Shown piece after piece: positions 4,201 to 64,000 of a DNA stretch of 64,000 nucleotides. The notes beneath the pieces were generated by a model, which worked only from the letters and a program-made list of their open reading frames with translations, was not told the origin of the DNA and did not search any database. This DNA comes from Anaerolineaceae bacterium (GTDB lineage Bacteria > Chloroflexota > Anaerolineae > Aggregatilineales > Phototrophicaceae): NCBI GenBank assembly GCA_002699585.1, contig PABP01000038.1, positions 806,001 through 870,000 on the forward strand, in the 5' to 3' direction. Position 1 is the stretch's first letter; each line of letters starts with the position of its first letter. A program made the position numbers and the translations under genes.

Positions 4201-7200
4201 ACCTGGCTGCTGAACTGGCACATGGGCCAGCTCAGTAATGTGACGCTGCCCAATGGCGACATCATCAGCTATGCCTATGACGACGCAGGCCGGATGGTCG
4301 CCGTCAATGATCGCGGAGCCGTATCGAGCTATACCTATGATGCGCTCGGCCATCTGCTAACGATGAGCGACCCCCTGGGGAACATCACCCAGACGACTTA
4401 CGATGCCCTGGGCAACCTGCTGCAAACGGTCAATCCGCTGGGAGAAACCACCCAGTACAGTTATGATTTACGCAGTAATTTGACCAGCGTCGTGACGCCC
4501 GATGGGCTGACCACGCACCACGAAACGGTCATTGAAGCGCCACCGAGCAGCCGCACCCAGCATATCGTCACTGAACCGAGTGGTCGCCAAACCACCTGGC
4601 GTTATGACGCCACCGGGCGGCTCATACAGGTGTCAGTCATGGATGGCACATTCAGCCAGTCGTACAGCATCGACTACAACGCCATCGGCCTGCCCACGCG
4701 CATTCAAAAGGAAAACGGACGCACGCTGACATTAGCCTATGACTTATTGGGCAATGTCACCAGCACGCGCATCAACGACACGGAAACGCGCTATGCTTAT
4801 GATGCCAACGGTCGCCTGAGCCAGGTCACGGAAGCCAACGGGCGCACTTTTAGCTACACCTATGACCTGCTTGGCAATCTGGTGGCAGTCGGCCAGGATA
4901 ACGGTGACAGCATCCAGTACGCCTACGACAGCAGCGGGCGCGTCATCAGCTACACGGATGCCATCGGGCGCGTGTACCAGTATGGCTACGATGCCAATGG
5001 CCGCCTGCAAACAGAAAGTGACGCGGTCAGTAACAACACCATCTACAGTTACGATGAGCGTGGTAATCTGGTCGGCGTGCATGATCCGTTGGGGAACACG
5101 ACCAGCTATGCTTATGATCTATCCGGCAACCAGGTTACGGAAATTGACGGGCTGGGCCATCAGGTTGAACAGGCTTATGATGCCCTCAATCGGTTGATTG
5201 CCATTGATTACAATGCTGAGGGGCGCGACCTATTCATCTCCTACGATACCAGCGGCCAGATTAGCAGCATCAGTGCTTACCGTGACCGCGTACGCGAGCT
5301 TTACAGCTACGATGCAGCAGGCCGCCTGACCACCGTGACAAACCCCATCGGCTACACGACCACGTTCCGCTATAACGGCCTGGGCCAACTCAGCAGCGTG
5401 ATTGACGCCATCGGCAATGAGCAAGCCTTTACCTGGCTCTCCGGGCGGTATGCGCTGGGCCGTTACACCGACGAAGCCAACCGCACCTATTCCTATGAAA
5501 ATATCGACGATCTAGGGCGTTTGTTATCGCTGCTGGATGTCACCACAGCAGAAGCCGATGCGCTCAATACGCGCTACAGCTACAACACCATGGGCGACAT
5601 CACCCAGGCACAGCGCTTCAACATCAACTCCAACAGTGAGCAGGTCATCACCGACCGCTACACATACGATGCCGAAGGCCGCGTGACGAGCTACGTCAAC
5701 GCGGAGGGTGGCCAATGGCAGTTGACTTATAATGCCGAAAACCAACTAATCGAAGCCGTCCAGCCCGATGGCATCCGCAACCAGTACAGCTATGATGTCT
5801 GGGGCAACATCACCCAGGCGACCTATGCCGTCGGGACATCTGACGAGCGCACCGAGCAATTCGTCTATGATGCAGTCGGCAACCTGCGCGAATACACCAG
5901 CCCAGGCGGCATCATCACCAGCTATGTGTATGATGCCAACCAACGGCTGGCCCTGGTCACGGAAGCGGTCGGCACCGAGCAGGAACGCACGCATACCTTC
6001 AACTACAACGATCTGGGGCAGATCGTGCGCTATACGGACCCCTTGGGCAACCCGACAGAATATCGCTACAGCCGCGACAATCTGGTGCAGGTGCGCCAGC
6101 CCTTAGGCGAAGACGAAATTGCCACATTCTATGAGTACGATCTGGCCAATAACCTGACGACGGTTCGTTTACCGGAACTATTGGGCAAGACGGCTAATAC
6201 CATCAACATGGCCTATAACGCGCTCAACCAACGGGTGCGCTTCACAGATACACTCAGCAACGTGTGGGCCTACAACTACGATACCTCCGGCAACGTCACC
6301 CAGGTCAGTGACCCGCTGGGCAGCATCACACGCTATAGATACGACAGCAATGATCGACTCATCGGCACGACGCTGCCAACCAACGCCGCCATCACCTATG
6401 ACTATGACATCATCGGCCACCTGAGCGAAATCGTGCTGCCGAACAATGCCAGTGGCGATGCCCAGGCCGTCGATTATGGCTTTGACCGCATGGGGCGCTT
6501 GCTTACGGTCAACAACGGCGATGGCCGCCTGACACGCTATCAATACGACTCAATGGGCCGCATGGTCAGTGTGCAGCAGCCGGATGGTACCACCATCAGC
6601 CTGAGCTATGACGTCCAAGGTCAACTGGTACGCTATGGCGACACACAAATCAGCTATGATGCCGATGGCCGCGTCGTGCAATTAGAAAATGGCCGTTCGT
6701 CGATCAATTACACCTATGACGCACTAGACCGCGTCGTCACAGTCACCGAGCAAATGGACGACACGGTCATGCTCAGCCTGAACTACAGCTACGATGCCAA
6801 CAATAACGTACTTGTCCGTCAGAGCGATGATTACGGCACTGTGCAATATCAATATGACGAACTCGGTCGATTGATAAGCCTGGGCAACGAGACACATAGC
6901 GTCACACTGGCCTATGATACGCAGAGCCACATCACACAGTTGGCGCGCAGTAATGGCATCACGACTTTTTACGCCTATGATGGCAATGGTCGCGTGGTGT
7001 TGGTGCAGCATTTTGACGCCAGTAACGAACGCCTGGAGCGCTTTGACTATCGTTATGATGCTATCGGCAATCTGGTGCGGGTTGACCGCACCAGCGCCCA
7101 GAGCGAAGACAGCGCCGCGCGTGTTACCAGCGTGTTATATACCTATGACATCGCCCACCGCCTCATCAGTGAGCGCTGGCTGGATGGCAACGGCACGGCT

Positions 7201-9599: not shown

Positions 9600-12407
9600 A
9601 TGACCACCACGCCCGAACCCCTGAAAATCTTTGTCAGCCACGCCACCGCCGATGACGACATTGTGACGCGCATCCACGATACACTAGAAGCCGAAACCGG
9701 GGCCGACATTTGGGTCGATCACAAGGATATTGGCCCAGGCGATATATGGGAACTCGAAATTGAGGCGAACCTCAGAACACGTCCATATTTCATGGTGTGC
9801 ATCTCGAAGAACTCAATGCCTTCTCTAGAAGTGCGGGCCGAGTGGCGCGAGGCTATTGCTCTTGGACACAACTTACTACCTGTAGTTATAGACGACATTC
9901 AAATGAGCGCCATCCCACCAAGATTAAAGCTATACCAGCTTGTATGGGTGTCCGAGACGAGCCTAAACAAAGACGTAGAAAAGCTAGTTCACGCTATCCG
10001 TAAAGCATCAGGATTAGCTGAAGCAGATGATGAGCCTAGCTTCACTATTATCAGTAAAATCACAGGTGAAATCCCACGTAACCTAGTACGAATAACGATG
10101 CATGGCCGCGAAAATGACCTTAAAGCTATTCAAGATGCTTTAATAACTGGCAATATCACCGCCATCATCGGCGTGGGCGGACTGGGCAAATCACGATTGG
10201 CCGCCGAGGTCGTCGCCAACAGTGAGGCCAAAGGCATCGTGTGGCATCGCATCAGTGATATAAGTCGGACTGATGATGTTGTCGTCATGTTGCGCCAAAA
10301 TATGGGTCTGCCCGATAACAGTGAGCGCGAAGAAATTATCACCAAATTCGGCACAGAAACGAGATTGCTAGTACTAGATAACGGCGAGGATGCCACTGGC
10401 GAACGTTTGGATGATTATGTGATTCTGGCCAATGAGTTATGCAGTGCTGGTGCAAAAGTTCTGCTGACCAGTCGTGTCATGTGGGATGACCTGGAAATGC
10501 CCAGAGAGAATCATCCTCAAACACTGCCATTGGACACAGCCGTTCAAGTCGTTGCAGAAATGGCCATCGCGTATGATGTGAGCGTACCAGAAACCGAACA
10601 CCAAGCTATTGCTCGCGACGGTCGACAGCACCCCTGGCTGATTGAATGGGCGATTAAACAGATGAAACGTCTGCCCATTCAGCACGTACTAGCCCTATTA
10701 CAATCGCTGGATGTACCACGTATACAAGACGCCATATACCAGATGATCGGCAAGACAGTCGAGCAAATGCGCGAGGAAAGCGCCGAAGCAGCCAAACTAC
10801 TGACCTGGATAACAGTGTTCAGAGGTGGATTCACTTATGATGCTGCCAAATTCGTTACGAGAGATAGTGGCGTAACCGACTTCGATACTGCGCTGGAAAT
10901 CCTGCAAAAATACGCTTTTGTGAACTTTGATCAATCGACGCAACGCTACAAAACAGATGTATTTGTAATCGAGGTTATACCGACAAACCTAGAAGCGCAT
11001 AAGCCGCATTATTTTTTCTACTTCTCACAAGCAGAAGAACACAATAGCAAACAGGATTACGTGGGCCTGAATGAAGAACAAGAAAATCTACAGAGTGCCT
11101 TTGAATGGGCCTTGTCAGTTGGCGACGGTGAGGACGCACTTTGGCTTATGAATCGGTGTGGTCAATACATGACAAACCGGGGCTATTTTGAACTTAGCTT
11201 GAATTGGGCAATCAGAGTTTTAGAGAGGTTAGATTCAACGGGAAAATCAGAATTACGAGCCAGCGCATTAAATGCCTTTGGGAACCGTTATGCACAGCTT
11301 CCTCATGGCAACAAGGTAACAAACATACACAAAGCAATCGATGCATTTGAAGAGGTATTAACCATACGTGGTTCTGATATGAAAACAAGTGACTATGCAG
11401 GAACGCAAAGCAATATTGGGCTAGCATATACAGAATTATCTTTATATGAGAATCCTCAACTCAATCTAGAAAAGGCTATTTCTGCTTATAAAGTTGCATT
11501 AAAAAACTTTGCAGTCAATTCTGATCAACTAGCTTATGCTATGGTTCAAAACAACTTAGGTATGGCATATCGTAGATTGTCAAAATATAAGCAATCAAAA
11601 ATAAATTTAGATTCGGCAATCCAAGCCTATCAACAATCACTACAAATCTATACTCCCGAATCCTCACCCATTGACTATGCAATGGCGCAAAATAATTTAG
11701 GAACGGCTTTTCGTGAATTGTCTGAGTATGCCCAGTCAGAAATCAATCTAAATTTGTCTATTGAAGCACTCAAGACGTCCTTATCATTTGCCAATATTGA
11801 AACTGCTCCTCAAGATTATGCTGCGACCCAGAATAATCTTGGTAACACTTATCGGACTTTAGCTCATATTACAGATCCTAAAGAGAATTTGGGTAAAGCT
11901 ATTGATGCATACAAAGAAGCCTTGAGAATACGAACTATTGGGACGGACCCTGTTGCTTTTTCAGCAACCAAGCATAACCTCGGAACAGCTTTCAGTGATC
12001 TAGCCGACTACGAACAGCCAATAGTAAATTTGAATAGAGCAATTCACTGCTATAAGAAAGCACTGCAGATACGCACTGCTGAAGATTACCCGCTTGATTA
12101 TGCCTTAACTCGGAATAGCCTTGGTGTCGCTTACTGGAAGCTCTCCCCATACGAAAACAGCAAAGACAATCAACAAAAAGCTATTAATTCATTCCAGGAA
12201 GCTCTCCGATTCTATACAGTTGATTCCACACCACTAGATTATGCTCAAATAAAAGCCAACATGGGAGTTATCTTAGAACGACAACAACAAATTGATGAAG
12301 CGCTACTTGCCTGGCGTGAAGCTGAGGCCATTTATCTACAGTTAGGCCATCCACATGCAGATCGTGTCAAAGGTTGGATTGAAGAGTACGAAAACCCAGG
12401 CGACTAA
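9600..12407 (+). CDS. TIR-STAND (NB-ARC)-TPR protein, putative antiphage effector
   Basis: 935 residues from the ATG at 9600 (Shine-Dalgarno aggaga just upstream). The N-terminal TIR domain spans about 7-135, with KIFVSHATADDD, IWVDHKDIGPGDIW and EVRAEWREA; Glu84 aligns with the NADase catalytic glutamate. A STAND ATPase follows: Walker A GVGGLGKS at 191-198, Walker B RLLVLDNGED at 255-264, sensor AKVLLTSR at 285-292, and a GxP-like segment HPWLIEW at 344-350. A winged-helix-like region runs to about 470. From about 490 to the end there are TPR repeats of roughly 48-52 residues (e.g. TQNNLGNTYRTL, TRNSLGVAYWKL). The architecture matches bacterial TIR-STAND immune proteins, in which the repeats sense a ligand, the ATPase oligomerises and TIR depletes NAD. 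The function is inferred. The TPR half is visibly more AT-rich than the N-terminal half, which suggests a different origin. Confidence 0.88.
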   Translation: MTTTPEPLKIFVSHATADDDIVTRIHDTLEAETGADIWVDHKDIGPGDIWELEIEANLRTRPYFMVCISKNSMPSLEVRAEWREAIALGHNLLPVVIDDIQMSAIPPRLKLYQLVWVSETSLNKDVEKLVHAIRKASGLAEADDEPSFTIISKITGEIPRNLVRITMHGRENDLKAIQDALITGNITAIIGVGGLGKSRLAAEVVANSEAKGIVWHRISDISRTDDVVVMLRQNMGLPDNSEREEIITKFGTETRLLVLDNGEDATGERLDDYVILANELCSAGAKVLLTSRVMWDDLEMPRENHPQTLPLDTAVQVVAEMAIAYDVSVPETEHQAIARDGRQHPWLIEWAIKQMKRLPIQHVLALLQSLDVPRIQDAIYQMIGKTVEQMREESAEAAKLLTWITVFRGGFTYDAAKFVTRDSGVTDFDTALEILQKYAFVNFDQSTQRYKTDVFVIEVIPTNLEAHKPHYFFYFSQAEEHNSKQDYVGLNEEQENLQSAFEWALSVGDGEDALWLMNRCGQYMTNRGYFELSLNWAIRVLERLDSTGKSELRASALNAFGNRYAQLPHGNKVTNIHKAIDAFEEVLTIRGSDMKTSDYAGTQSNIGLAYTELSLYENPQLNLEKAISAYKVALKNFAVNSDQLAYAMVQNNLGMAYRRLSKYKQSKINLDSAIQAYQQSLQIYTPESSPIDYAMAQNNLGTAFRELSEYAQSEINLNLSIEALKTSLSFANIETAPQDYAATQNNLGNTYRTLAHITDPKENLGKAIDAYKEALRIRTIGTDPVAFSATKHNLGTAFSDLADYEQPIVNLNRAIHCYKKALQIRTAEDYPLDYALTRNSLGVAYWKLSPYENSKDNQQKAINSFQEALRFYTVDSTPLDYAQIKANMGVILERQQQIDEALLAWREAEAIYLQLGHPHADRVKGWIEEYENPGD

Positions 12408-60318: not shown

Positions 60319-60738
60319 ATGACTAACCCACTTGTGCCCAATGACATCGACCTGCACGACCTACTGAGCACCGCCCAGACTATCGCCGTCGTTGGCCACA
60401 GCGACAATCCGGGCCGCACCAGCTATCAAATCGCTGGCTATTTACGTGCTGTTGGCTACACAATCTATCCCGTGAACCCGACCGTCAGCGTGATTGATGG
60501 CCAGCCCAGCTATCCCAGCTTGGCCGCTGTCGCCGCACCGATTGACATCGTGAATGTGTTCCGGCGCTCGGAATTTGTGGATGGCATTGTTACGGAAGCG
60601 ATTGCGGTTGGCGCGAAGGCTATCTGGACGCAATTGGGCGTCATCGACGAAGCAGCCCTGCAACGCGCCCAGGACACAGGTCTGCATGTCGTCATGAACC
60701 GCTGCATCAAGGTCGAGCATGTGCGGTTGGGCGTGTAG
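60319..60738 (+). CDS. CoA-binding (YccU-like) Rossmann protein
   Basis: 139 residues, a single CoA-binding domain. The fold motifs are AVVGHSDNPGRTSYQIAGYL, YTIYPVNPTVSVIDGQPSYPSL, and the closing HVVMNRCIKVEHVRL. Similar small proteins are common and have no assigned activity. It ends the rsmI-Nudix unit, just before the AT-rich island. Confidence 0.88.
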   Translation: MTNPLVPNDIDLHDLLSTAQTIAVVGHSDNPGRTSYQIAGYLRAVGYTIYPVNPTVSVIDGQPSYPSLAAVAAPIDIVNVFRRSEFVDGIVTEAIAVGAKAIWTQLGVIDEAALQRAQDTGLHVVMNRCIKVEHVRLGV

Positions 60739-60790
60739 AATCCTCAATGGAGTTAGAAATTGCACACATATCCACAAATCAATTATAGTT

Positions 60791-60828
60791 TTCTTGTGCA
60801 ATAACAATTCTTAATATACTATTATTGC
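60791..60828 (+). promoter_or_regulatory. Candidate promoter and operator of the RelA/SpoT-domain pair
   Basis: TTCTTG at 60791 and TATACT at 60815 are 18 bases apart. A perfect inverted repeat GCAATAA / TTATTGC (60798-60804 and 60822-60828) brackets the -10. An autoregulating protein could bind there. By eye only. Confidence 0.35.
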
Positions 60829-60858
60829 ATACGCTCCAATAAATAGAGTTGCAAACCT

Positions 60859-61896
60859 ATGGATACTTGGAATATTTCATTTGTTGCGGGATATAAAGTA
60901 CCGCCTTGTTACGGCATGAATGAAGAATATGTACAATCACAAGTTGAGGGCTCAAGTTTCGAGCTAGATGAATCCGGCCAAAGATACTTCCTACCCTTGT
61001 TTGAAAATGGCTTATCAAACAATGCAATAAACGTTGCATTCGAAACAAATGATCAAGATCATTACATTCGTAACCAAATTCTTGCTCTCAATGATGATAA
61101 TGTAGCGCTCAAAGAACAAGTGGCAAGGGATCTAGCACTCAGACTGGCAATATCAAGTCCAAAAAGCACTCGCAACGGGCTGCTCGTCATAATGGCAGGA
61201 AAGCAAAGTGATAAGTATCGTGTTGTGCTGTGGAAATTCCCAGCAAATCCGAGTATACAGGCAGAATTACTGGACTCAGAATTAGTTATCCGAGTCCTTG
61301 ATAGCGCCTTTTCCCGAGATACGGATTACTTCAAAGCTGCTATTTTTGAGGATAAAAGCCTCGATAGATCATCTTTCTTGTTTGGAAAGATAGAAGATAA
61401 ACAGACACGAGTTCGTGGTGCAGCCGCATTGTTTTGGATGAAAAACTTCCTAGGAACAAGACCACAGATATCTGATGAAAATGGTACTAGAACTATAGGA
61501 CGTGCCCTGCGTGATCTAACAAAAAAGCACAAGAACACGCAAAGTGTAGTGTCTTTACTGTCTGCGGCTGAGGTCGCTAAATCAAGATCGAATGTAATGA
61601 CTTCTATTCAGGATTTTTCAGAGCATTTATCCGCTGAACTAGCCGAAGAATTTCTAGATACGGTAAATGAGTACATACCAAGAGCAACGCCATTTCATAT
61701 CGTACCTGAGATGTTGGACACTGAACTAGGCGCAAGAATTATAATACTAGAAAACAATGTCAGGATTCTCGGTCCTACTGAAGAAGTAAATGCACTAATG
61801 GATTCTGCGAGAACAAATGGAGATAAGGTAAGTATTTCTATTGAGCAATCCATTGAGGAAGACAAATTGAAAACCATAAATAGCTTGCGTGGCTAA
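60859..61896 (+). CDS. Unrecognised protein coupled to a RelA/SpoT-domain gene
   Basis: 345 residues, soluble, no signal peptide. Sequence segments such as LFWMKNFLGTRPQISDENGTR, VMTSIQDFSEHLSAELAEEFLDTVNEY and LGARIIILENNVRILGP faintly recall the C-terminal part of the NA37/YejK nucleoid-associated family. I could not confirm this. The start uses the ATG at 60859. The DNA is visibly more AT-rich than the neighbours, a sign of transfer. Its 3' end overlaps the next gene by eight bases, so the two are translated together. A toxin-antitoxin or defence pair is an inference. Confidence 0.65.
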   Translation: MDTWNISFVAGYKVPPCYGMNEEYVQSQVEGSSFELDESGQRYFLPLFENGLSNNAINVAFETNDQDHYIRNQILALNDDNVALKEQVARDLALRLAISSPKSTRNGLLVIMAGKQSDKYRVVLWKFPANPSIQAELLDSELVIRVLDSAFSRDTDYFKAAIFEDKSLDRSSFLFGKIEDKQTRVRGAAALFWMKNFLGTRPQISDENGTRTIGRALRDLTKKHKNTQSVVSLLSAAEVAKSRSNVMTSIQDFSEHLSAELAEEFLDTVNEYIPRATPFHIVPEMLDTELGARIIILENNVRILGPTEEVNALMDSARTNGDKVSISIEQSIEEDKLKTINSLRG

Positions 61897-62554
61897 CAAC
61901 ATGGACATTAGGTCTGCGTATGTAGCAAGACACCCTACTCTTGAGGAAATTGCTTCAGAGCTAAAATCATACCTTAACGATGCTCTCGAAGGAGAGCAAA
62001 GAATAGACATGATAGCAACTCGAGCAAAAGACATTGCTGGTTTTGTCAAAAAGGCCAACAATCCAAAAAAAAATTATCAAAACCCTATCAACGAGATTCA
62101 AGATCAAGTTGGCGCAAGAATTGTTGTCCATTTACAGAGCGACGTAGACCACATTGCACACAAGATGAAAAGTGAGTTCACTTTCATTGAGGTGCAAGAA
62201 AAAAAACAAAGTGATCCAAAGGCATTTGACTATCAAGCTCGCCATATGATATGTCATCTACCCCCACAGATCATAAATAAACACAATAGTTTGATTTCAC
62301 TATTTGAACTACAAATCTGCACGTTGTTTCAGCACGCATGGGCAGAAGTTAGTCATGATCTAGCATACAAACCTAATCACGAAATACCAGAAGAAATCAC
62401 AAGAAAAATAGCTCTCATTGCTGCTCAGGCGTGGGGGGCTGACTTAATGTTCCAAACAATATGGAATGAGCTAGAGCAACCAGGACCAACACAAGGAATA
62501 GAAGACAAGGTTGAAAACACTGATAACAAGCATAGCTCATCTTCACCTAGCTAG
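61889..62554 (+). CDS. RelA/SpoT synthetase-domain protein with altered motifs
   Basis: 221 residues from a GTG; an ATG four codons later is also possible. The (p)ppGpp-synthetase fold is recognisable: RAKDIAGFVKKA (45-56), IQDQVGARIVVHLQSDVD (70-87), and LFELQICTLFQHAWAEVSHDLAYKP. The usual GY..H motif appears as FDYQARH (113-119), and the usual ExQxRT motif as ELQICT (140-145). The Arg of that motif is Cys and the Gly before Tyr is Asp. These changes could lower or change activity; toxic members of this family modify ATP or tRNA. The C terminus is a Ser-rich tail. Its partner gene overlaps it upstream. Confidence 0.75.
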   Translation: MANNMDIRSAYVARHPTLEEIASELKSYLNDALEGEQRIDMIATRAKDIAGFVKKANNPKKNYQNPINEIQDQVGARIVVHLQSDVDHIAHKMKSEFTFIEVQEKKQSDPKAFDYQARHMICHLPPQIINKHNSLISLFELQICTLFQHAWAEVSHDLAYKPNHEIPEEITRKIALIAAQAWGADLMFQTIWNELEQPGPTQGIEDKVENTDNKHSSSSPS

Positions 62555-62864
62555 GCCTTCAATCGTACAGCTTATATAAACAATCAATTCTCAGATTTAA
62601 CTTTGGGTCTCTATGTTAAATCTTTCTCTGTGCGCTCTGTGTCCTCTGTGGTGAAATCCCAAACATCGTACCATATGGAACGCTTTTCACGCTCATTTTA
62701 TGCTACGCTGGCCCTGAGCAAGACTTCACTCAGCACTCAAAACTCGGCCCTCAGCACTGTTTTCAAAACTTTTTCTCGTTATGCAGCACTATACTGCGGA
62801 TACTGCAAACAAAAATCGCCCCAACCGAAGTCAGAGCGATTTCATACGTGAGTGAATGTGCTGC
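62555..62864. other. Intergenic region with low-complexity repeats and asnS terminator
   Basis: No convincing gene in these 310 bases. The stretch 62624-62656 (ctctgtgcgctctgtgtcctctgtgg) repeats a CTCTGTG unit, and 62728-62758 repeats cagcact. Both look like dispersed low-complexity DNA. The terminator of asnS lies at 62811-62842. Confidence 0.55.
62811..62842 (-). terminator. Terminator after asnS
   Basis: On the minus strand, aaatcgc pairs with gcgattt, followed by a T-run (ttttgtttg). The loop is 16 bases, longer than usual. Confidence 0.7.
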
Positions 62865-64000
62865 TTATGGGTACTTGCGATTCAGCAAACGCGCGTAGGG
62901 AATCGTCTCGCGGATATGGTCGAGCCCACAGATCCAGGCCACGGTGCGCTCAATGCCGATGCCAAACCCGGCATGCGGCACGCTCCCGAACTGGCGCAGT
63001 TGCAGGTACCAGTCGTAATTCTCTTCCGGCAGGCCCTGCGCTTGCAGCTTCTGGCGCAGCAGGTCGGCATCGAAGATACGCTCGCTGCCGCCAATGATCT
63101 CGCCGTAGCCTTCCGGCGCCAGCAGGTCCACGCTGCGGCAGACCTCATCACGTCCGGCGACGGGCTGCATGTAAAATGCCTTCACCGCGCTCGGATAGTG
63201 ATAGACGAACACGGGCCGATTGAACATCTCGGCCAGCGCGGTTTCATGCGGGCTGCCGAAGTCCTCGCCCCATTCAATCTTGAGCAGTTCTTTCTGCTCC
63301 GGGTCGTCAGTTTCGTCGGCCAGCTTTTGCAGGCGCTCGATGGCCTCATCATAGGTGATGCGCGGGAACGGCGCGGCGATGTTCGCCAGTTGGACCGTAT
63401 CGCGCTCGATGATCTCTAGCTCTTGCTGATGCTTGGCCAGCACTTGCGCCACAATGTAGCTGACCAACTGCTCTTCGACGTCCATCAACTCGTCCAGGTC
63501 ACAGTAGGCGATCTCCGGCTCCAGCATCCAGAACTCGATCAGATGGCGGCGCGTCTTGCTCTTCTCCGCGCGGAAGGTCGGGCCGAAGCAGTAGACGCGG
63601 CCAAACGCAAAAATATTGGCTTCGTTGTAAAGCTGGCCAGTCTGTGCCAGATAAGCAGGTTCACCGAAGTAATCCAGCTCAAACAGCGTGGTGGTTTCTT
63701 CACCTGCCGCCGGAGTGATGATCGGCGTATCGACCAGCAAGAAGCCGTTGTTATCCAGCCAATCGCGCATGGCCTTGATGATCGTCGCCCGGATGCGCAG
63801 GATGGCCCATTGGCGGTCGCTGCGAAGCCACAGGTGGCGGCGGTCCATAAGGTACTCAGTGCCGTGTTCCTTAGGCGTGATGGGGTACTCGTCGCCCACC
63901 TGGACGACTTCCACGCCTGTCACGCCGATTTCATAACCGCCGGGGTAGCCGGGAGCGCGTTCATCGGCCCGAACGTTGCCCGTAATGATGACTGATGATT
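62865..64000 (-). CDS. asnS: Asparagine--tRNA ligase (5' partial)
   Basis: The frame is open to the right edge, so the start lies outside; a GTG at 63923 is internal. The visible N-terminal part includes the end of the anticodon-binding OB fold ([20 protein letters not shown]). The class II catalytic core has motif 2 [21 protein letters not shown] and motif 3 [27 protein letters not shown]. The EFWMLEPE segment favours AsnRS over AspRS. It charges tRNA-Asn in translation. Confidence 0.95.

Follow-up and report, generated by a model that had tools for sequence, protein, structure and literature searches.

Near the end of the window (the whole 64,000-nucleotide stretch of Anaerolineaceae DNA analysed here), an AT-rich pair of genes raises the question of whether a RelA/SpoT-domain protein and its upstream neighbour form a toxin-antitoxin or abortive-infection system, as the initial annotation had supposed, or whether they are a synthetase in decay with an unrelated gene beside it. 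Our analysis favours, tentatively and at a little under an even chance, a horizontally mobile module of two genes, of the toxin-antitoxin or abortive-infection type, with a YejK-like protein as controller of a small alarmone synthetase that would be toxic. The features of the locus are:

60319..60738, forward strand: left flank, a CoA-binding-domain gene at the end of the rsmI-Nudix-CoA-binding run; same order in G059, a genome of the same genus
60739..60858, no strand: AT-rich leader (GC 0.30) separating the CoA-binding gene from the pair
60739..62864, no strand: segment (approximate ends) present in the window and absent at the same place in G059, from gene-order comparison
60859..61896, forward strand: upstream gene (the partner), an ORF with an ATG start, 345 aa, YejK-like predicted fold
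61889..62554, forward strand: downstream gene, a small alarmone synthetase with a RelA/SpoT domain (221 aa if read from GTG 61889; alternative start at ATG 61901)
62865..63923, reverse strand: right flank gene, same order in G059 with 84% identity; presumably asparaginyl-tRNA synthetase (AsnS)

Both open reading frames lie on the forward strand exactly where they had first been called, and the AT-richness remarked on at that time was reproduced: the two genes have a GC of 0.403 and 0.401, compared with 0.562 and 0.599 for the flanks, and a GC3 of 0.33 and 0.35, compared with 0.64–0.70 for rsmI, the Nudix gene and the CoA-binding gene. The 8-base overlap between the genes, also claimed initially, holds if translation of the synthetase starts at GTG 61889 but becomes a 4-base gap if it starts at ATG 61901 (Met5), which is the better fit, the family alignment mostly starting there. 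One sigma-70-like match lies in the leader (60761–60789), while promoter-like matches in the region were at chance level (six, with 5.6 in shuffles), as were terminators, and Rfam gave no match at gathering score between 58000 and 64000. A second AT-rich dip occurs elsewhere in the window, at 11001–12000 (GC 0.392 vs 0.541 for the window).

The region of the CoA-binding gene was compared in nine genomes of the family, and only G059 shares the gene order, which runs AzlC, AraC, RsmI, Nudix, CoA-binding and AsnS (presumptive names, in part those of the initial annotation). G059 has this order without the pair, and the 2.1 kb of the window correspond there to about 0.1 kb; it is an empty site, and the pair is inserted between housekeeping genes. 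The other eight genomes have the CoA-binding gene alone and are uninformative on the insertion site. No terminal inverted repeats were seen at the segment edges, the longest match between the two edges being 8 bases.

The pair is also rare. The synthetase has one match in its own genome, and the partner is absent from the other 97 genomes of the window's family (1/98). A partner profile found only the seed genome both among 350 genomes of the phylum and among 297 of the order of G454 (a Bradyrhizobium, the genome of locus L022); these counts (1/98, 1/350 and 1/297) show rarity, and not independent co-occurrence, because the seeds were chosen beforehand. With a synthetase profile run on the same 350 and 297 genomes, the two seeds scored 238 and 313 bits and a further eleven matches 50–95 bits, and the synthetase subfamily is therefore sharply set off and rare. 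Ten of the eleven weaker matches lie in open frames of at least 343 residues, and these long-frame relatives may be fused forms.

The downstream protein carries a RelA/SpoT synthetase domain, as first annotated (Pfam RelA_SpoT, PF04607, E 4e-17, residues 44–163), and matches PDC-S33 in PADLOC (1.2e-11) and phrog_9640 in PHROGs (2.7e-31); against NCBIfam NF053588 (GTP diphosphokinase YjbM) it scores 62.8 bits, below the cut-off of 320. In its AlphaFold2 model (pLDDT 87.5) a helix at residues 168–196 is followed by a low-confidence tail alone. The closest solved fold is RelQ/YjbM (E 1.6e-10), CapRel chains being matched as well (7ztb, E 5.8e-07), and the closest solved relative by profile is RelQ (E 2e-15), with CapRel at E 0.0079.

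In the portion of PMC5794853 available, ATP is contacted in SaRelP by Arg78, Lys80, Ser84, Lys88, Arg91, Arg112 and His190, magnesium is held by Asp107 and Glu174, and guanosine is bound by Tyr151; FaRel2, according to PMC11782079, uses Arg64, Lys66, Ser70, Lys74, Arg77, Asp90, Arg95, Tyr128, Glu145 and Gln147. Window residues were paired with these by motif and spacing (our own mapping), and R45, K47, K55, D72, R77, Y115, E140, Q142 and H156 proved invariant in all 65 aligned synthetase rows, whereas the equivalents of SaRelP Ser84 and Arg91 are not conserved.

Both motif variants on which the initial annotation had dwelt are present, FELQICT with Cys144 and FDYQARH with Asp114-Tyr115. Position 144 is Cys in two of the 65 rows (the window and L020, the nearest relative of the window's partner protein), Thr in one and Lys in 62, a Lys count that is too high, [KC] having been part of one of the two scan patterns; in the non-window rows bearing the other scan motif, Lys stands at 144 in 25 of 26. 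Since Cys144 is common to the window and L020, it is to be read as a lineage trait and not as damage. Position 114 is Asp in the window only, Gly in 63 rows and Ser in one. Asp114, together with other window positions that deviate from the family and the divergence of the window copy (best partner identity 27%), might be taken as the mark of an alarmone synthetase in decay beside a gene unrelated to it, but neither frame is interrupted, no mapped catalytic residue has been lost, Cys144 is shared and the pair is conserved elsewhere. We regard decay, the alternative that the initial annotation had named as its own refutation, as very improbable, and the invariant mapped residues and the purifying selection in relatives (see below) contradict it.

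The residue after the conserved Tyr is basic in none of the 65 rows. RelQ has Arg117 at this place, which in the available text of PMC5794853 helps to order the G-loop, and the positive acceptor patch of FaRel2 is described as smaller than in alarmone synthetases (PMC11782079, in part). The missing basic residue and the smaller patch of FaRel2 point weakly to an acceptor that lacks a polyphosphate, e.g. a tRNA end, and the tRNA 3' end may be a little more likely as acceptor than GDP/GTP. The same position also bears on whether the genes could be a non-toxic regulatory pair, a (p)ppGpp synthetase beside a YejK-like adjuster of expression, topology or element transfer. Such a pair would agree with the nearest solved relatives of the enzyme, the (p)ppGpp synthetases RelQ and RelP, and with a link, given in the title of PMC8565334, between the NdpA protein NdpA2 and the control of mobile-element transfer in Pseudomonas, but the difference from RelQ Arg117 in every row, an NCBIfam score far short of its cut-off and a patchy distribution that is unusual for a housekeeping regulator make it decidedly unlikely.

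The upstream protein had been described as large and of unknown family, and in the sequence searches this stands, with no significant family match in Pfam, PADLOC, NCBIfam or PHROGs; its fold, on the other hand, is not unknown, the predicted structure matching YejK. Two matches to PDB sequences were discarded as chance, the designed protein SAKe6FE (E 0.00017, where no stretch passes on its own) and an endoglucanase (E 0.13). The AlphaFold2 model, built from 62 sequences, has a pLDDT of 89.2, and in Foldseek its only PDB match under E 0.05 is E. coli YejK (9be2; E 8e-8, TM 0.41), with which VIA-align gives Z 14.7 over 262 residues at an rmsd of 10.1. One viral protein also matches, at 5.3e-8. 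Profile comparison of the partner with a YejK set of 16 sequences gave probabilities of 5 and 18% (P 0.0076 and 0.0014), a match that is weak alone yet collinear, five reversed or unrelated controls giving P 0.11–0.48. PF04245 (NA37) is matched by two of the 62 partner-family members (best E 0.0033), none being assigned to it, and the window partner gives no match to it up to E 1. The partner is very probably related to YejK. A separate bona fide NA37/YejK gene is found in the same genome (G000, C41:63497-64426, L125; 58.1 bits, above the family cut-off).

According to PMC10561277, YejK/NdpA binds double-stranded DNA and contacts topoisomerase IV, and an ndpA gene is present on a mobile element. 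The window partner has a pI of 5.06 and YejK proteins a median of 5.34; since these are acidic too, the acidity of the partner is no guide to DNA binding. Similarity to KwaB, which binds injected phage DNA without cutting it (PMC12904381, in part), covers the first 200 residues of the partner and is only a hint from the model: the KwaB chains align at Z 5.5–5.6 over 133–147 residues and unrelated rows reach Z 5.0. KwaB does not occur among the 25 Pfam families listed, of 28, for the 62 partner members, or among their four PADLOC families, and a genome search with PF16162 (KwaB), which was silent throughout, controls included, was left out of the evidence. The YejK-like fold and this weak similarity would suit an arrangement in which infection leads the synthetase to produce a nucleotide signal and the partner acts as effector, binding DNA and stopping replication or transcription, much as KwaB, in the same portion of PMC12904381, binds injected DNA and blocks replication and late transcription; with KwaB scarcely above the unrelated folds in Z, we consider this improbable.

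Whether the two genes belong together was examined at other loci. Plasmid records gave six partner matches (21–26% identity), each of them on a conjugative plasmid from Rhizobium or Agrobacterium; the same six records also carry the six synthetase relatives that scored best, and four of the six regions read as overlapping pairs. Among phage records there were 15 relatives of the synthetase but none of the partner, and partner-based scans of genome contigs and viral contigs found no relatives. A scan with the synthetase alignment found 80 loci, 76 in genomes and four in viral contigs (L026 and L090, and L035 and L037, are likely duplicates from their identical scores). The loci having been selected by the synthetase, the presence of the partner is a result and not a search condition: 77 of the 80 loci have a partner match immediately upstream, 44 of the 46 genomes behind the loci contain a partner match, and both genes are intact in 64 loci, so that the co-occurrence check proposed with the initial annotation shows a pair conserved as a unit. 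The remaining loci comprise eight with an intact synthetase and a partial partner, which is cut by the contig end in three (L014, L028, L064) and disrupted in five (L013, L057, L062, L067, L081), two with an intact partner and a partial synthetase (L079, at a contig end, and L083, interrupted), three in which both genes are partial (L070, L086, L087), and three with a partial synthetase and no partner match (L048, L088, L092).

In three of the five disrupted partners the damage is a single stop or a shift in a metagenome assembly, which sequencing errors could explain. In L067 (6898-8004) the first third of the partner has been swapped in frame, for what looks like the beginning of a type III DNA methyltransferase gene, with the synthetase left intact; in L062 the remaining end of the partner is preceded by another gene, presumably a Tn3-like transposase. 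There is one clear reverse case, L083 (6758-7870), where an inserted gene, which we assume to be an insertion-sequence transposase, splits the synthetase and leaves the partner intact. In L092 (2391-3095) the synthetase stands without a partner and has lost its C-terminal part, between genes that are presumably phage terminase and portal. The contig that carries the L079 pair (4586-6124) was assigned to an archaeal metagenome bin, labelled Micrarchaeota.

Five disrupted partners beside intact synthetases in 80 loci fit poorly with a simple antitoxin, and indicate either that the partner is an activator or that the orphan gene is silent; an orphan synthetase may simply not be expressed. As an activator or sensor, the partner would switch on a synthetase that is inactive alone when it meets foreign or altered DNA, which would explain why its loss seems tolerated and would fit the YejK-like fold of a DNA-associated sensor; KwaB is likewise described, in the text available, as binding phage DNA during defence (PMC12904381). 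Set against this, three of the five cases may be the sequencing errors mentioned and the others may have lost the promoter of the synthetase, and known toxSAS partners, in the accessible part of PMC11782079, neutralise their enzyme, for which reasons we rate an activating partner as unlikely.

The two genes have evidently descended together. A 4-base overlap is found in 41 of 58 intact pairs at other loci, and the pairwise distances of the two proteins over 59 loci give r 0.83, where 1000 shuffles reach at most 0.23, a correlation that shows joint descent and not by itself interaction. Of the 32 pairs compared for each gene, dS was usable in 5 for the partner and in 4 for the synthetase; in these dN/dS was 0.04–0.10, pointing to purifying selection on both genes in the relatives, while selection on the window copy is not measurable because of its divergence. 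Ten phylum labels occur among the 57 labelled rows of a tree of the 62 partners, in which the window row, on a branch of 3.11, groups with L020 (Myxococcota) and L079 (archaeal bin) at 100/98; this grouping, flagged by the tool, may be a false join of long branches.

The neighbourhood survey, made with a simple gene caller, took in 168 genes at 45 loci (at most two per side, none over 900 aa), of which 148, with five of the loci left out, were scanned and yielded three resolvases, three phage integrases, two cytosine methylases and many ordinary genes, with no gene family in more than three of the 148. As the survey had no matched control, no defence-island enrichment is claimed. On plasmids, genes annotated as AbiJ-NTD4 (L003), TIR domain (L004) and DarT family (L005) lie within 6 kb of the pair, and the 28 pooled neighbour genes of the viral contigs L089–L091 include portal, terminase, head and integrase families. 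A convergent hypothetical gene of about 160 aa, equal in length in all three, adjoins the pair in three Rhizobiaceae plasmids, the L003 copy having no Pfam match:

L003 6681-7163, reverse strand: convergent gene of about 160 aa
L004 6679-7161, reverse strand: convergent gene of about 160 aa
L005 6683-7165, reverse strand: convergent gene of about 160 aa

The module reading, a toxic synthetase under the control of its YejK-like partner, is preferred because the pair is conserved as a unit, with 4-base overlaps, correlated distances and low dN/dS; because of the empty site in G059, the low GC and GC3, and the occurrences on conjugative plasmids close to AbiJ-NTD4, DarT-family or TIR-domain genes and in viral contigs alongside phage structural genes; and because of the invariant catalytic residues, the YejK-like fold and the precedent of toxSAS. 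Counting against it are the five loci with a disrupted partner and an intact synthetase frame, set beside one clear reverse case, and the sequence of the enzyme, which is nearer to RelQ/RelP than to CapRel and so resembles housekeeping enzymes more than a known toxin. We envisage that the downstream enzyme would be an active pyrophosphotransferase, would take pyrophosphate from ATP and, when free, would halt growth, that the partner would control it through a protein-protein complex, and that coupled translation of the overlapping genes might keep the two proteins balanced. In the resting cell the partner would silence the synthetase, probably at the nucleoid, until the state of the DNA changes, for example through incoming or replicating phage DNA; the synthetase would then be freed, and the cell would be arrested before the phage multiplies. 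Complex formation, DNA sensing, toxicity, trigger and translational coupling are all steps that we infer. The stronger proposition, that a nucleoid-associated protein of the YejK kind detects the state or origin of DNA and gates a toxic synthetase directly, the pair being a defence module of a new class that would couple surveillance of DNA to the pyrophosphorylation of tRNA or nucleotides, is speculative and somewhat unlikely. The toxSAS are known phage-defence effectors, and the present family, which spans ten phylum labels and has a nucleoid-fold partner, would suggest a controller of a different kind, with perhaps DNA itself as the trigger and not a phage protein; it would also give some of the YejK/NdpA-like proteins carried by mobile elements a function.

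Jimmy et al. 2020 is reportedly the main survey of toxSAS and may list this synthetase subfamily. Among the matches listed from titles and abstract starts in the open-access literature, none described a synthetase with a partner resembling YejK or KwaB. The toxSAS enzymes are described, in the parts of the sources available, as toxin-antitoxin and phage-defence effectors (PMC11782079, PMC11559606, PMC9712102), the trigger of the two-gene systems being called open in PMC11782079. Like FaRel2/ATfaRel2, PhRel2 and FaRel, the window pair consists of a SYNTH-domain enzyme and a dedicated partner in two genes, and its synthetase has catalytic residues in common with theirs (by our own mapping of published numbering). 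The partners probably differ, those of toxSAS being pseudo-zinc-finger, Tis1-like, PanA-containing or hydrolase proteins in the accessible text of PMC11782079, whereas the model of the window partner matches YejK and, among the matches listed, its fold lists show YejK and none of these four. CapRel shares the SYNTH domain, and its chains are matched by the synthetase model, but the window enzyme has 221 aa without an antitoxin domain in the same chain (unfused CapRel has also been described) and matches CapRel more weakly in sequence than it does RelQ. RelQ and RelP are its nearest solved relatives by profile and fold, from which it is set apart by a score far below the NCBIfam cut-off, by a conserved partner gene and, for RelQ, by the position after Tyr, which is Arg117 there and not basic in the window family. 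YejK/NdpA (PF04245, NA37) shares the fold of the partner model, notwithstanding large differences in arrangement, reflected in the rmsd and TM values, and the window partner is coupled to a synthetase gene and not assigned to PF04245. Kiwa (KwaA-KwaB) resembles the pair only in the similarity between partner and KwaB, which is too weak to argue for kinship, and the second gene of the window pair is a synthetase in place of a KwaA-like membrane gene.
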